Shown here: piece after piece, positions 47,364 to 51,369 of the stretch | Layout of the letters: every line of letters starts with the position of its first letter | How positions within the stretch are numbered: position 1 is the first letter of the stretch | NCBI RefSeq assembly: GCF_014084105.1 | Contig: NZ_CP048289.1 | Coordinates: 1,125,922 to 1,189,921 of the forward strand | Direction of reading: 5' to 3' | DNA from: Streptacidiphilus sp. P02-A3a | GTDB lineage: Bacteria > Actinomycetota > Actinomycetes > Streptomycetales > Streptomycetaceae | Length of the DNA stretch: 64,000 nucleotides | Program-made: the position numbers and the translations under genes | The notes under the pieces: generated by a model | What the model was told of the DNA's origin: nothing | The model's database searches: none | Seen by the model: only the letters and a program-made list of their open reading frames with translations

Positions 47364-47822
47364 ATGAGTACTGACGAGTCCCCGACCGACGAGTCCCCGA
47401 CCGACGAGCCCCCGACCGACGAGCCCCCGGCCGCGCTGCCGCCGTTCGCCGAGCTGGTACTGGAGCTGGCCGAGCGGATCCCCGCCGGTCGGGTCATGAC
47501 CTACGGGGACGTGGCCGAGTACCTGGAGGGGGAGCGGAGCGGGGCGACTCCCCCGGGGGCGGCGGTCGGCCGCCGGGTGGGCGGGGGGCCGCGCCAGGTG
47601 GGGCGGGTGATGGCGCTGTACGGCGGGTCGGTGCCCTGGTGGCGGGTGGTGCGCGCGGACGGCGCGCTGCTGCCCGGCCACGAGCTGCGCGCCCTCGCCC
47701 ACTACCGGGACGAGGGCACCCCGCTGCGCCCGGCCCGCGGCCGGGGCCCCGCCCGCGGCTCGGCGGCGGCCGAGGACCTGCCGCGGGTCGACCTGTCCCG
47801 GGCCCGCTGGGACGGCCGCTGA
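47364..47822 (+). CDS. Alkyltransferase-like protein (ATL)
   Basis: 152 residues of the O6-alkylguanine-DNA alkyltransferase fold. The DNA-binding region (MTYGDVAEYL ... PRQVGRVMALYGG) is intact, but the active-site PCHRV reads PWWRV (Trp92, Trp93): the alkyl-accepting Cys is absent. Such ATLs bind O6-alkylguanine and pass it to nucleotide-excision repair. Two oddities: an N-terminal run of four TDESP/TDEPP pentapeptides (15-bp DNA repeats), and an extra ~17 residues (ERSGATPPGAAVGRRVG) inserted between YLEG and GGPRQVG. The insert resembles one in adnA. Neighbours are DNA-repair genes, as with Rv3204 in M. tuberculosis. Confidence 0.9.
   Translation: MSTDESPTDESPTDEPPTDEPPAALPPFAELVLELAERIPAGRVMTYGDVAEYLEGERSGATPPGAAVGRRVGGGPRQVGRVMALYGGSVPWWRVVRADGALLPGHELRALAHYRDEGTPLRPARGRGPARGSAAAEDLPRVDLSRARWDGR
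47544..47582 (+). repeat. Shared 39-bp insert, copy A (in ATL gene)
   Basis: Ungapped match to 49081-49119 at 33 of 39 positions, in the same reading frame (ATPPGAAVGRRVG here, ATPSGVVAGRRVG there). Related sequence continues upstream (GGAGCGGAGC against GGAGCGAAGC). GGAG and CTCC pair to form a small hairpin. Confidence 0.8.
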
Positions 47823-47902
47823 GGGTGCCGGGGCGGTGGCGGCAGCTGCCGGAGGGATCCGTGCGAAGCCGGGACAACGGGGTGGCTGACGGGGGAGCAT
47901 CG

Positions 47903-47908
47903 TAGGCT
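47903..47908 (+). promoter_or_regulatory. -10 box TAGGCT upstream of adnA
   Basis: TAGGCT ends 11 nt before the GTG at 47920, predicting a leader of only a few nucleotides. No ribosome-binding sequence is present. Confidence 0.4.
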
Positions 47909-47919
47909 CGCGACGTACG

Positions 47920-50900
47920 GTGGCTCAGGTGCCGCGGCCCGCCGCACCCGAAAGCCCCCGTAGTTCCTCCCCCTGGACCGTGCCGATGACCTCCCAGCCC
48001 GTTGCCCCTGGTGCGCGCACGGGCGCGTACCGCCTGGTGCGCGACCCGCTGGCGACGCCCCGGCCCCCCGTGCTCGACGCCTACCAGCAGGCCGTGGTGG
48101 ACCACCGGGGCGGCCCGCTGCTGGTCCTCGCCGGGCCGGGCACCGGCAAGACCACCACGCTGGTGGAGGCGGTGACCCGGCGGATCGCCGAGGGGGTGCC
48201 CGCCGACGAGGTGCTGGTGCTGACCTTCAGCCGCAAGGCCGCGGTGGAACTGCGCGACCGGATGACCGCCCGGGTCGGCGGCCTCGGCGGGGTGCCGCAG
48301 GCCACCACCTTCCACTCCTTCTGCTACGCCCTGGTCCGCGCCCAGCAGGACCAGGAGACCCGGCTGGCCTCGGGTCCGGAGCAGGACGTCATGGTCCGCG
48401 AGCTGCTCGCCGGGAACGCCGAGGACGCCAGGGACGGTCGCGGCGTCCGCTGGCCGGACGAGCTGCGGGCCTGCCTGACCACCCGGGGCTTCGCCGACGA
48501 GGTCCGCGCGGTGCTCGCCCGCACCCGGGAGCTGGGCCTGGGCGAGGACGAGCTGAAGCGCTTCGCCGAGCGGGTCGGCCGCCCGGACTGGCACGCGGCC
48601 GCGGCCTTCCTCGCGGACTACCTGGACGTGCTGGACCTGCGCGGGGTGCTCGACTACTCGGAGCTGGTGCACCGGGCGGTGCTGCTGGCCGAGCGCCCCG
48701 AGGTCGGCGAGCGGCTGCGCCGCCGGTACCGGGTGGTCTTCGTGGACGAGTACCAGGACACCGACCCGGCGCAGGTCCGACTGCTGCGGGCGCTGGCCGG
48801 GGACGGCCGCGAGCTGATCGCGGTGGGCGACCCGGACCAGTCCATCTACGCCTTCCGGGGGGCCGACATCAACGGCATCCTCGGCTTCCCGCAGGACTTT
48901 CCGCGGGCCGACGGCCGACCGGCGCCGATCAGGGTGCTCCGGGTGTCCCGCCGCTCCGGCGCCACGCTGCTCGCGGCCAGCCGCACGGTCGCGCTGCGGA
49001 TGCCCATGGCCCGGCTCCCCGCCGAGGCACTGACCCAGCACCGCCAACTGATCGCGGAGCAAAGGGAGGGCGGGAGCGAAGCGACTCCCTCGGGGGTGGT
49101 GGCCGGGCGACGGGTGGGCCGGGTCGAGGTCTACACGTATCCGACGCCTGGTTCGGAGACGGACAACATCGCCGACCTGCTGCGCCGGGCGCACCTGGAG
49201 GAGGGCGTGCCGTGGGGCGAGATGGCGGTGCTGGTGCGGGCCGGGGCCCGGTCCATCCCCGGGTTCCGGCGGGCCCTCGGCTCGGCCGGGGTACCGCTGG
49301 AGATCGACGGCGACGACCTGCCGCTGCACGCGGAACCGGCGGTCGAGCCGCTGCTCACCGCACTGCGGGTGTGCGCCGACGGCGCGGTCCACGACCGCCG
49401 GATGGCGGCCGTCGGCAGCGCGCCCGGCGAGGACCCGCTGACCGCGGAGCTGGCCCGGCAACTGCTCACCGGCCCGCTGGGCGCGCTGGACGGCGCCGAC
49501 CTGCGCCGCCTCGGCCGCGCCCTGCGCGAGGAGGAGCGTGCGGCCCTCCGCGCGCTCCCGCCGGAGCACCAACGCGCCGTGCGCCCCGCCGACCAGCTGG
49601 TGCGCGAGGCGCTGGCCGAACCGGAACGCCTGGTCACCCTGGACGGTGTGCACGCGCGGCGGGCGCACCACCTGGGCCAGCTGCTGCGCAAGGTACGCGA
49701 GTCGCTGGCCGGTGACGCCTCCGCCGAGGACGCGCTGTGGGCGCTGTGGGACGGCTCCGAGCGCTGGCGGCAGCGGCTGGAGGCGGCCGCCCTGCGCCCG
49801 GGCACCGCCGGGCGCAACGCCGACCGGGACCTGGACGCGATCTGCGCGCTGTTCGAGACCGCCGCCCGCTCCGCCGAGCGGATGCACGGGCCCAGGGACG
49901 CGCTGAACTTCCTCGCCGAGCTGGAGCAGCAGGACATCGCCGCGGACACCCTCTCCGGCCGCACCGTGCGCCCGGACGCCGTGCGGCTGCTCACCGCGCA
50001 CCGGTCCAAGGGGCTGGAGTGGCGGCTGGTGGTCGTCGCCGGGGTGCAGGAGGGGCTCTGGCCGGACCTGCGGCGGCGCGGGTCGCTGCTGGAGGCGGAC
50101 CGGATCGGCCGGGACGGCCTGGCCGAGCCGCTGAGCCCGGGCGCGCTGCTCGGCGAGGAGCGCCGGCTCTTCTACACCGCCGTGACCAGGGCCAGGGAGC
50201 GGCTGATCGTCACCGCGGTCAAGGCCCCGGCCGACGACGGCGACCAGCCCTCGCGCTTCCTGCGCGAGCTCTACCGGGAGCTCCCGGACGGCACCCGGGT
50301 CCCCGACGTCCGGGTCGAGGACGTCAGCCACCGGCCGCGCCGCCCGCTGGCGGTCGCCGCGCTGGTGGCCGAGTTGCGGGCGACCACGGTGGATCCGGCG
50401 GCCTCGCCGGAGCTGCGCGAGGCCGCCGCCGAGCGGCTGACCCGGCTGGCCGCGCTCACCGACGACGACGGTGTGCCGCTGGTCCCGGCCGCGCACCCGC
50501 AGCGCTGGTGGGGGATGGCGGAGGCGACCGGCAACGCCGTGCCGGTGCGCGAGCCGGAGCAGCCGCTGCGGCTGTCCGGCAGCGCCCTGGAGCAGGTCGG
50601 CTCCTGCGCGCTGCAGTGGTTCCTGGGCCGGGAGGTGCGGGCCGAGGGCGCCTCCAGCGCGGCCCAGGGCTTCGGTAACGTGGTGCACGTGCTCGCGGAC
50701 GAGGTCGGCTCCGGGCGCACCCCGGCCGAGCTCGGGGTGCTGATGGAGCGGCTCGACACGGTCTGGGACGCGCTGGCCTTCGACGCGCCGTGGAAGTCCG
50801 AGCAGGAGAAGGGCGAGGCCAGGGCCGCCCTGGAGCGCTTCCTGCGCTGGCACGCGGACGAGCGCGGCCGGGTGGTGGCGGCCACCGAGCACCCGTTCGA

Positions 50901-51369
50901 GGTGGAGCTGGAGGCGGGCGGCCACACGGTGCGGATCCGCGGCAGCATGGACCGGGTGGAGCGGGAGGAGCCCGGCGGGGCGGCCTTCGTGGTCGACTTC
51001 AAGACCGGCAAGCGGGTGGTCTCAGGTCCCGACCTGCGGACCCACCCGCAGCTGGGCGTCTACCAGCTGGCGGTCCGCGCGGGCGCGGTCGACGGGCTGG
51101 AGGCCTTCGCCGGGGAGCAGCCGCAGCCGGGCGGGGCGGAGCTGGTGCAGCTGCGCCAGGCAGCCGGAAAGGACCAGGAGGATCGTCCCAAGGTCCAGGG
51201 CCAGCCCTCGATCGCGGACGATTCCGGCTGGATCGAGGGCCTGCTGGTCGAGGCCGCCGACCGGATCGTCAACGAGCGCTTCGTGCCGACCGTCGGCCCC
51301 GGCTGCGACCACTGCTCGTTCCGGCGCAGCTGCACCGGGCATCCGGAGGGCCGGCAGGTGGTGGAGTGA
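47920..51369 (+). CDS. adnA: AdnA-like helicase-nuclease subunit
   Basis: 1149 residues from GTG 47920 (ATG at 47986 is an alternative start). UvrD-type helicase: Walker A AGPGTGKT (71-78), VLTFSRKAA, FVDEYQDTD, GDPDQSIYAFRGAD, and LTAHRSKGLEW. The C-terminal RecB-like nuclease has VVDFKTGK (~res. 1025) and four cysteines, SCALQWF then GCDHCSFRRSC, spaced like AddB/Cas4 iron-sulfur nucleases. It corresponds to AdnA (Rv3202c) of mycobacteria, half of the double-strand-break resecting heterodimer. An extra segment ATPSGVVAGRRVG near residue 390, just before GRVEVYTYPTPG, matches the insert in the upstream ATL gene. Confidence 0.92.
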   Translation: MAQVPRPAAPESPRSSSPWTVPMTSQPVAPGARTGAYRLVRDPLATPRPPVLDAYQQAVVDHRGGPLLVLAGPGTGKTTTLVEAVTRRIAEGVPADEVLVLTFSRKAAVELRDRMTARVGGLGGVPQATTFHSFCYALVRAQQDQETRLASGPEQDVMVRELLAGNAEDARDGRGVRWPDELRACLTTRGFADEVRAVLARTRELGLGEDELKRFAERVGRPDWHAAAAFLADYLDVLDLRGVLDYSELVHRAVLLAERPEVGERLRRRYRVVFVDEYQDTDPAQVRLLRALAGDGRELIAVGDPDQSIYAFRGADINGILGFPQDFPRADGRPAPIRVLRVSRRSGATLLAASRTVALRMPMARLPAEALTQHRQLIAEQREGGSEATPSGVVAGRRVGRVEVYTYPTPGSETDNIADLLRRAHLEEGVPWGEMAVLVRAGARSIPGFRRALGSAGVPLEIDGDDLPLHAEPAVEPLLTALRVCADGAVHDRRMAAVGSAPGEDPLTAELARQLLTGPLGALDGADLRRLGRALREEERAALRALPPEHQRAVRPADQLVREALAEPERLVTLDGVHARRAHHLGQLLRKVRESLAGDASAEDALWALWDGSERWRQRLEAAALRPGTAGRNADRDLDAICALFETAARSAERMHGPRDALNFLAELEQQDIAADTLSGRTVRPDAVRLLTAHRSKGLEWRLVVVAGVQEGLWPDLRRRGSLLEADRIGRDGLAEPLSPGALLGEERRLFYTAVTRARERLIVTAVKAPADDGDQPSRFLRELYRELPDGTRVPDVRVEDVSHRPRRPLAVAALVAELRATTVDPAASPELREAAAERLTRLAALTDDDGVPLVPAAHPQRWWGMAEATGNAVPVREPEQPLRLSGSALEQVGSCALQWFLGREVRAEGASSAAQGFGNVVHVLADEVGSGRTPAELGVLMERLDTVWDALAFDAPWKSEQEKGEARAALERFLRWHADERGRVVAATEHPFEVELEAGGHTVRIRGSMDRVEREEPGGAAFVVDFKTGKRVVSGPDLRTHPQLGVYQLAVRAGAVDGLEAFAGEQPQPGGAELVQLRQAAGKDQEDRPKVQGQPSIADDSGWIEGLLVEAADRIVNERFVPTVGPGCDHCSFRRSCTGHPEGRQVVE
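49081..49119 (+). repeat. Shared 39-bp insert, copy B (in adnA)
   Basis: Second copy of the in-frame element described at 47544-47582, located 1.5 kb away between the motor and the following conserved segment of AdnA. Six mismatches separate the copies, some at third codon positions, suggesting that the coding frame is tolerated. Confidence 0.8.

Follow-up and report, generated by a model that had tools for sequence, protein, structure and literature searches.

Two related segments in neighbouring DNA-repair genes

The window, a stretch of 64,000 nucleotides from Streptacidiphilus sp. P02-A3a, carries two neighbouring DNA-repair genes, encoding an alkyltransferase-like (ATL) protein and an AdnA-type helicase-nuclease, and each gene holds one copy of a short repeat. 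The features are as follows:

47364..47822, + strand: host gene, ATL-like protein of 152 aa (Pfam PF01035 DNA_binding_1, E 2.5e-12)
47531..47583, + strand: repeat copy inside the ATL gene (model R3, E 1.5e-4, whole genome)
47544..47582, + strand: ATL stretch of the first-pass annotation, 3′ section of the repeat including its G-rich tail (33/39 identical to 49081-49119)
47980..51369, + strand: host gene, AdnA-type helicase-nuclease, start codon unassigned (Pfam UvrD-helicase and PDDEXK_1; PDB relatives 7sjr_A and 6ppj_A)
49068..49120, + strand: repeat copy inside adnA (model R3, E 9.7e-10, whole genome)
49072..49089, + strand: hairpin part of the adnA copy, GGGAG...CTCCC (sequence, alignment row)
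49081..49119, + strand: adnA stretch of the first-pass annotation, 3′ section of the repeat including its G-rich tail (33/39 identical to 47544-47582)

A sequence search of the PDB with the ATL protein gave no relative at E ≤ 0.001.

The first-pass annotation had reported two 39-bp stretches, 47544-47582 in ATL and 49081-49119 in adnA, matching at 33 of 39 positions without gaps and read in frame. Our recount gave the same figure, and each stretch starts at a codon boundary of its own host gene (frames taken from the ATG at 47364 for ATL and from 47980 for adnA); the ATL stretch reads ATPPGAAVGRRVG and the adnA stretch ATPSGVVAGRRVG. When the 33 shared positions were fixed, the other 6 set to N and up to 3 mismatches allowed, the pattern occurred in the 64 kb at these two places only, and 100 shuffles yielded no match to it. 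The match is therefore real, whereas the length first given to the unit was too short: model placement and the inserts of 51 bp in ATL and 48 bp in adnA put the unit at ~51 bp, of which the 39 bp form the 3′ part in both genes.

The ATL copy adds ~17 codons, and G-rich flanks blur its exact ends by a few bases. The adnA copy is degenerate: aligned in the family register, it fails to form two of the five consensus stem pairs, and its DNA fold is no better than that of shuffles (z -0.10). Indeed, both window copies are degenerate as hairpins.

Did one copy give rise to the other? The closest match of the adnA copy is a copy in another genome of the same genus, and the ATL copy is not among the eight that match it best; in the reverse comparison, the adnA and valS copies share second rank among the matches of the ATL copy. 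We therefore rejected a local duplication between ATL and adnA. Ranked across genomes in this way, the two copies are instead members of a dispersed family.

Copies, hairpin and empty sites within the genus

The Streptacidiphilus sp. P02-A3a genome is a single contig of 9.33 Mb. BLAST with the adnA copy revealed further copies in it (best other E 2.0e-9), and a sequence-only covariance model built from seven copies recovered others on which it had not been trained, such as the one in thrC (E 2.2e-9). With a later hairpin covariance model we counted 14 copies at E ≤ 0.0021 and a doubtful fifteenth at E 0.0095; a search for the exact short hairpin pattern, with 1 mismatch allowed, matched the adnA copy only. 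Twelve of the 14 sit within predicted genes whose frame stays open; the other two form a tandem intergenic pair. According to Pfam and NCBIfam, the hosts are ATL, AdnA, a molybdopterin-binding dehydrogenase, threonine synthase, a GH20 hexosaminidase, Lon, valine-tRNA ligase, a VWA protein, L-aspartate oxidase, a DUF3516 helicase, a chorismate-binding/GATase enzyme and CobD/CbiB. All 14 are found at 1.1-3.2 Mb or 7.3-8.7 Mb of the contig. Near 8,323,568, an intergenic array (L253, 1501-1650; G and L numbers are our handles for genomes and loci) is made up of ~53-bp units, two good and one weak, and an array with diverged units in G013 (L443) apparently occupies the same intergenic place. In a gene that we tentatively named a putative RNA methyltransferase, this genome keeps the 3′ part of the repeat only and three relatives hold a whole copy.

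All 14 genomes searched in the genus carry copies at E ≤ 0.01, from 1 to 33 per genome. The 136 matches listed at this threshold were refetched with their flanks and gave 132 copies at E ≤ 0.001 in 117 loci, a set in which some array units are lost and copies common to several genomes are counted once per genome; 93 of them fall within genes, 30 are intergenic and 9 overlap a gene end. Counting one locus per place, we obtained 122 sites: 87 fall within genes and keep an open frame, 26 are intergenic and 9 overlap a gene end. These calls come from a custom gene finder whose coding call requires an open frame by design. Coding positions are mildly avoided, since the loci are 86.6% coding and 71% of the sites are coding. 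The many genomic copies, intergenic ones included, that the first-pass annotation had proposed to look for are thus present, and its counter-case of a sequence found nowhere else and explained by shared codon bias is at odds with copies elsewhere in the genome, in the genus and in further genera.

Copies occur in both orientations, singly or in tandem, within and between genes, and the genus hosts also include PurK, CobN, MetH, glutamyl-tRNA reductase, NadA and RecF. In G003, the lon gene contains three tandem in-frame 17-residue units at a site that differs from that of the lon insert in the P02-A3a genome, and an ABC transporter gene contains nine tandem units near its end, the last two in another frame. 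A subtype with one extra tail base (GGTGGYCGGGC), to which the adnA copy belongs, accounts for 24 of the 132 genus copies (e.g., L256, L262, L443 and L445). The genus-type consensus is 51 nt long with zero stops in all six frames, and therefore a copy in a gene adds ~17 residues without a frameshift. Freedom from stops in six frames characterizes 70 of the 93 coding copies versus 15 of the 30 intergenic ones.

The unit carries a hairpin near one end, a feature that had escaped the first-pass annotation: a 5-bp stem closed by a G-N-A triloop (55 of the 65 alignment rows with letters there), followed by a conserved G-rich tail of ~30 nt. We examined the stem in alignment A4, which was built with a sequence-only model and then tested for stem covariation; its input was the window, 10 loci of the P02-A3a genome and 54 of 80 contig loci, picked by hand, the omitted ones being mostly weak or edge copies. 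Standard pairs fill 92.0% of the stem cells versus 78.8% after shuffling, both-side changes number 29 versus 5.7, and the covariation score is 0.210 versus 0.058, with none of 500 shuffles reaching any of these values; the measure of pairs with a change on both sides was matched by 29 of 500 shuffles. When the partner column was shifted by 1-3, the score fell to at most 0.037, and at +3 columns 73.9% of the cells still paired.

Both-side changes can also be followed at single sites. The thrC stem is GGCGC/GCGCC in the P02-A3a genome and GGGGC/GCCCC in two relatives, and a both-side change is found in three of ten shared-site groups (thrC, GH20 and L423/L424); in the remaining groups the stem is unchanged, changed on one side or broken. 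Alternatively, such changes could reflect mutation templated by the hairpin itself, or one copy having been replaced by another. The DNA folds of five copies of the P02-A3a genome gave z values of -0.84, -0.10, -1.00, +1.87 and -1.95 against shuffles, none clearly better, and Rfam 15 covariance models run on nine loci at E ≤ 1 had no match at the repeat and 4 elsewhere in the loci.

Orthologous sites were compared for 4 of the 12 host genes: ATL, adnA, valS and thrC. The 51-bp ATL insert is missing from 12 of the 14 other aligned rows (15 rows from 30 loci, P02-A3a included), the exceptions being G013, of the same genus, with a diverged copy at the same site, and L229, with a shorter unrelated filler. 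In adnA, where the insert measures 48 bp against close relatives, the residues are found in none of 28 other aligned rows; at this site the close relative G007 has a 21-bp filler, and linker length is variable in distant families. The valS insert (51 bp) is missing from all 24 other rows, one of them a distant relative, and the thrC insert (48 bp, antisense) is present in G000, G003 and G013 and missing from 22 of 25 rows. No clear target duplication was seen at the four sites, whose flanks are diverged and G-rich.

The ATL and adnA inserts are missing from nearly all orthologues aligned, and these comparisons supply the empty sites that the first-pass annotation had asked for, in valS and thrC as well. 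The same residues do not recur in distant genera at both places, as the rows from other genera lack them. Judged from the aligned orthologues, the repeat was gained or lost over evolution at these sites, and from the same presence and absence we infer that it moves. The proposal of a small repeat, mobile or template-copied, that enters genes without breaking their frame is supported to that extent. Separately, the match to several same-genus adnA loci is split near residues 470-487; in L244 (G012) the pieces are ~440 nt apart, as if AdnA had received a much larger insertion unrelated to the repeat.

Occurrence beyond Streptacidiphilus

A scan for the tail pattern returned actinomycetes only among the 80 loci listed (80 of at least 119 stretches). 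An exact tail match alone does not amount to a full copy, as in L135, which has no stem, and in a simple scan 19 of the 80 contig copies among the matches listed were without a stem of at least 4 bp in the 40 nt upstream. A model built from copies of the P02-A3a genome only and applied to 54 of the 80 loci located the repeat, besides Streptacidiphilus, in seven further actinomycete genera: Streptomyces, Nocardiopsis, Nocardia, Streptomonospora, Streptantibioticus, Kitasatospora and an Amycolatopsis MAG. The best E outside the genus was 4e-13, in a Streptomyces locus. Prauserella, Saccharomonospora and Glycomyces showed the tail match only and were outside the 54 loci of the model. The family thus spans several actinomycete genera, a point to be added to the first-pass annotation.

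Among the 82 pattern matches listed, 28 fall within predicted genes, 46 are intergenic and 8 overlap a gene end, and the intergenic share is higher outside the genus than within it among the matches listed. In an even sample of the class, at least 15 of 148 genomes, P02-A3a included, score at E ≤ 0.001; as scoring was confined to 39 candidates per genome, counts across the class are minimum figures. One of these genomes, G109, has 43 copies at E ≤ 0.01. Thirty of its loci were fetched: 24 are intergenic, 5 are inside predicted genes (three of them forming one array) and 1 (L294), cut by a contig end, is unreadable. Many G109 copies are part of a larger repeated unit or of arrays with a period of ~52-55 bp. 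In loci such as L280, L302 and L308, an intergenic unit of ~125 bp starts near AGCGACGAAGAACC and ends near AAACACAG, and is perhaps a composite repeat of its own.

Nature and spread of the repeat

Taken together, the two window segments very probably belong to a DNA repeat family of actinomycetes that is dispersed and apparently non-autonomous. Could they instead be a protein motif, conserved or converged? In 85 of the 87 coding genus sites, the sense frames are used 37, 8 and 6 times and the antisense frames 23, 6 and 5 times; the favoured sense and antisense frames share one codon grid (60 of 85 sites) and both yield linker-like peptides, as a protein motif might. However, all six frames are in use, which argues for a DNA element, 26 of 122 genus sites are intergenic, and it is the DNA stem that covaries. 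We therefore rejected a protein module on six-frame use and intergenic copies, and the idea seems highly improbable. Chance similarity through the shared codon bias of GC-rich genes is still harder to credit. The sequence is indeed GC-rich and partly repetitive, and the ATL copy by itself scores poorly (E 0.16 when searched with a small profile), but shuffles gave no match, a profile search of the reversed sequence returned 0 hits at E < 1 versus 100 in the true sequence, copies outside the training set matched at E ~1e-12, and intergenic copies exist; the shuffle and reversed-sequence controls led us to reject it.

What is the mechanism of spread? Most likely, a single-strand hairpin is copied in replication or repair, with or without a dedicated factor. 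Some factor would recognise the hairpin-forming single strand during copying or insertion of the repeat, for which replication forks or repair gaps are conceivable places; selection would keep the copies that land where the host protein tolerates a linker, and tandem growth and partial in-frame deletion may follow. Within this scheme the repeat may, as we tentatively propose, be a still-active selfish hairpin, propagated by some enzyme or by host replication, its 51-nt length and six-frame freedom from stops being adaptations to genes. If so, core enzymes of Streptacidiphilus would steadily gain, multiply and trim 17-residue linkers, and compensatory change would keep the stem even within genes, where recognition of the DNA hairpin would continue to demand it.

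HUH-type enzymes use small hairpins with an unpaired flank as their substrate. One of them (an IS200/IS605 TnpA or a RAYT), cutting and joining single-stranded hairpin DNA, might mobilise the repeat in trans, and the small hairpin with its unpaired flank has a form that would suit such enzymes. GTAG-type REP elements are also tied to RAYT genes, according to the available part of PMC3733652. Our transposase search covered PF01797 (Y1/RAYT transposase) and found no match at E ≤ 1e-5 in the P02-A3a genome, nor in the four genomes outside the genus that are richest in copies within the class sample (G109, G137, G145 and G171); PF01797 is present in 5 of the 31 genomes tested, of which three (G127, G139 and G069) show a single repeat copy in the class search. 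RAYT mobilisation was rejected on the absence from the P02-A3a and copy-rich genomes, and we regard a dedicated HUH enzyme as unlikely. Possibly, no dedicated enzyme is needed and host replication or repair copies the hairpin strand into single-stranded gaps, by template switching or by telomere-type protein-primed synthesis. Sites are clustered (6 pairs of genus sites less than 5 kb apart versus 0.99 expected, computed without regard to contig ends or shared ancestry) and tandem arrays are present. In addition, the G-N-A loop is of the type found in Streptomyces telomere palindromes II/III, which have GCA loops with sheared G-A pairing and are bound by Tap (PMC4513846, available part). On the other hand, the clustering may stem from a few hot spots or shared ancestry, conservation of the tail across genera suggests specific recognition, and the likeness to the palindromes, which lie at chromosome ends, is one of loop type only, so that a link to Tap would be a lead.

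Known intragenic repeats offer a closer comparison. The RPE of Rickettsia are palindromes of 105-146 bp (or ~150 bp) with terminal inverted repeats that lie in frame inside conserved genes as well as between genes and have no known mobilising enzyme (PMC2229807 and PMC10969869, available parts). The actinomycete repeat resembles them in being in frame in unrelated conserved genes and also intergenic (87 coding and 26 intergenic of 122 genus sites), but it lacks both the RPE size (105-150 bp) and the terminal inverted repeats: it is ~51 bp long, has a single short hairpin at one end that gives way to a long, unpaired, G-rich tail, and occurs in actinomycetes. The CGTC-tagged REPs of Di Nocera and others (2013, PMC3733652, available part) are marked at one end by CGTC as an unpaired tag, and their short tails mostly fit CCA. 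They too are short hairpin repeats, some in coding regions, without a known dedicated transposase; compared by description, alignment A4 shows no consensus CGTC tag beside the stem. CGTC does occur in the repeat, on the reverse strand ~20 nt from the stem within the tail, and in the type of the P02-A3a genome also just 3′ of the stem. GTAG REPs and REPINs are likewise short hairpin repeats dispersed through one genome, but A4 has no GTAG tag by the stem and the P02-A3a genome has no Y1 transposase. As to MITE features, the consensus is without terminal inverted repeats and no clear duplication is seen at the four genes compared, with their diverged, G-rich flanks.

As far as the available parts of these sources describe them, the repeat acts like RPE and intragenic CGTC repeats without their size, tag or architecture. 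In the accessible parts of the open-licence literature we found no paper describing an actinomycete family of such repeats, and five 13-mers of the tail led to one unrelated paper; the main text of PMC3733652 does not mention actinobacteria, and the RPE reviews PMC2229807 and PMC10969869 mention neither Streptomyces nor actino-. The RPE phenomenon, best known from Rickettsia, would extend to free-living organisms with large genomes, open to cultivation and editing, and actinomycete hosts would make repeat movement and enzyme tolerance testable. For annotators, odd Gly/Arg- or Pro/Thr-rich segments in these host proteins may represent DNA repeats and not a conserved trait of the protein. Many conserved enzymes would offer natural insertions of 16-17 residues, with empty-site orthologues as controls. 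As for the valine-tRNA ligases, G000 carries a second such gene (C1:368455-370596), 78% identical to the query, and G013 likewise has two.
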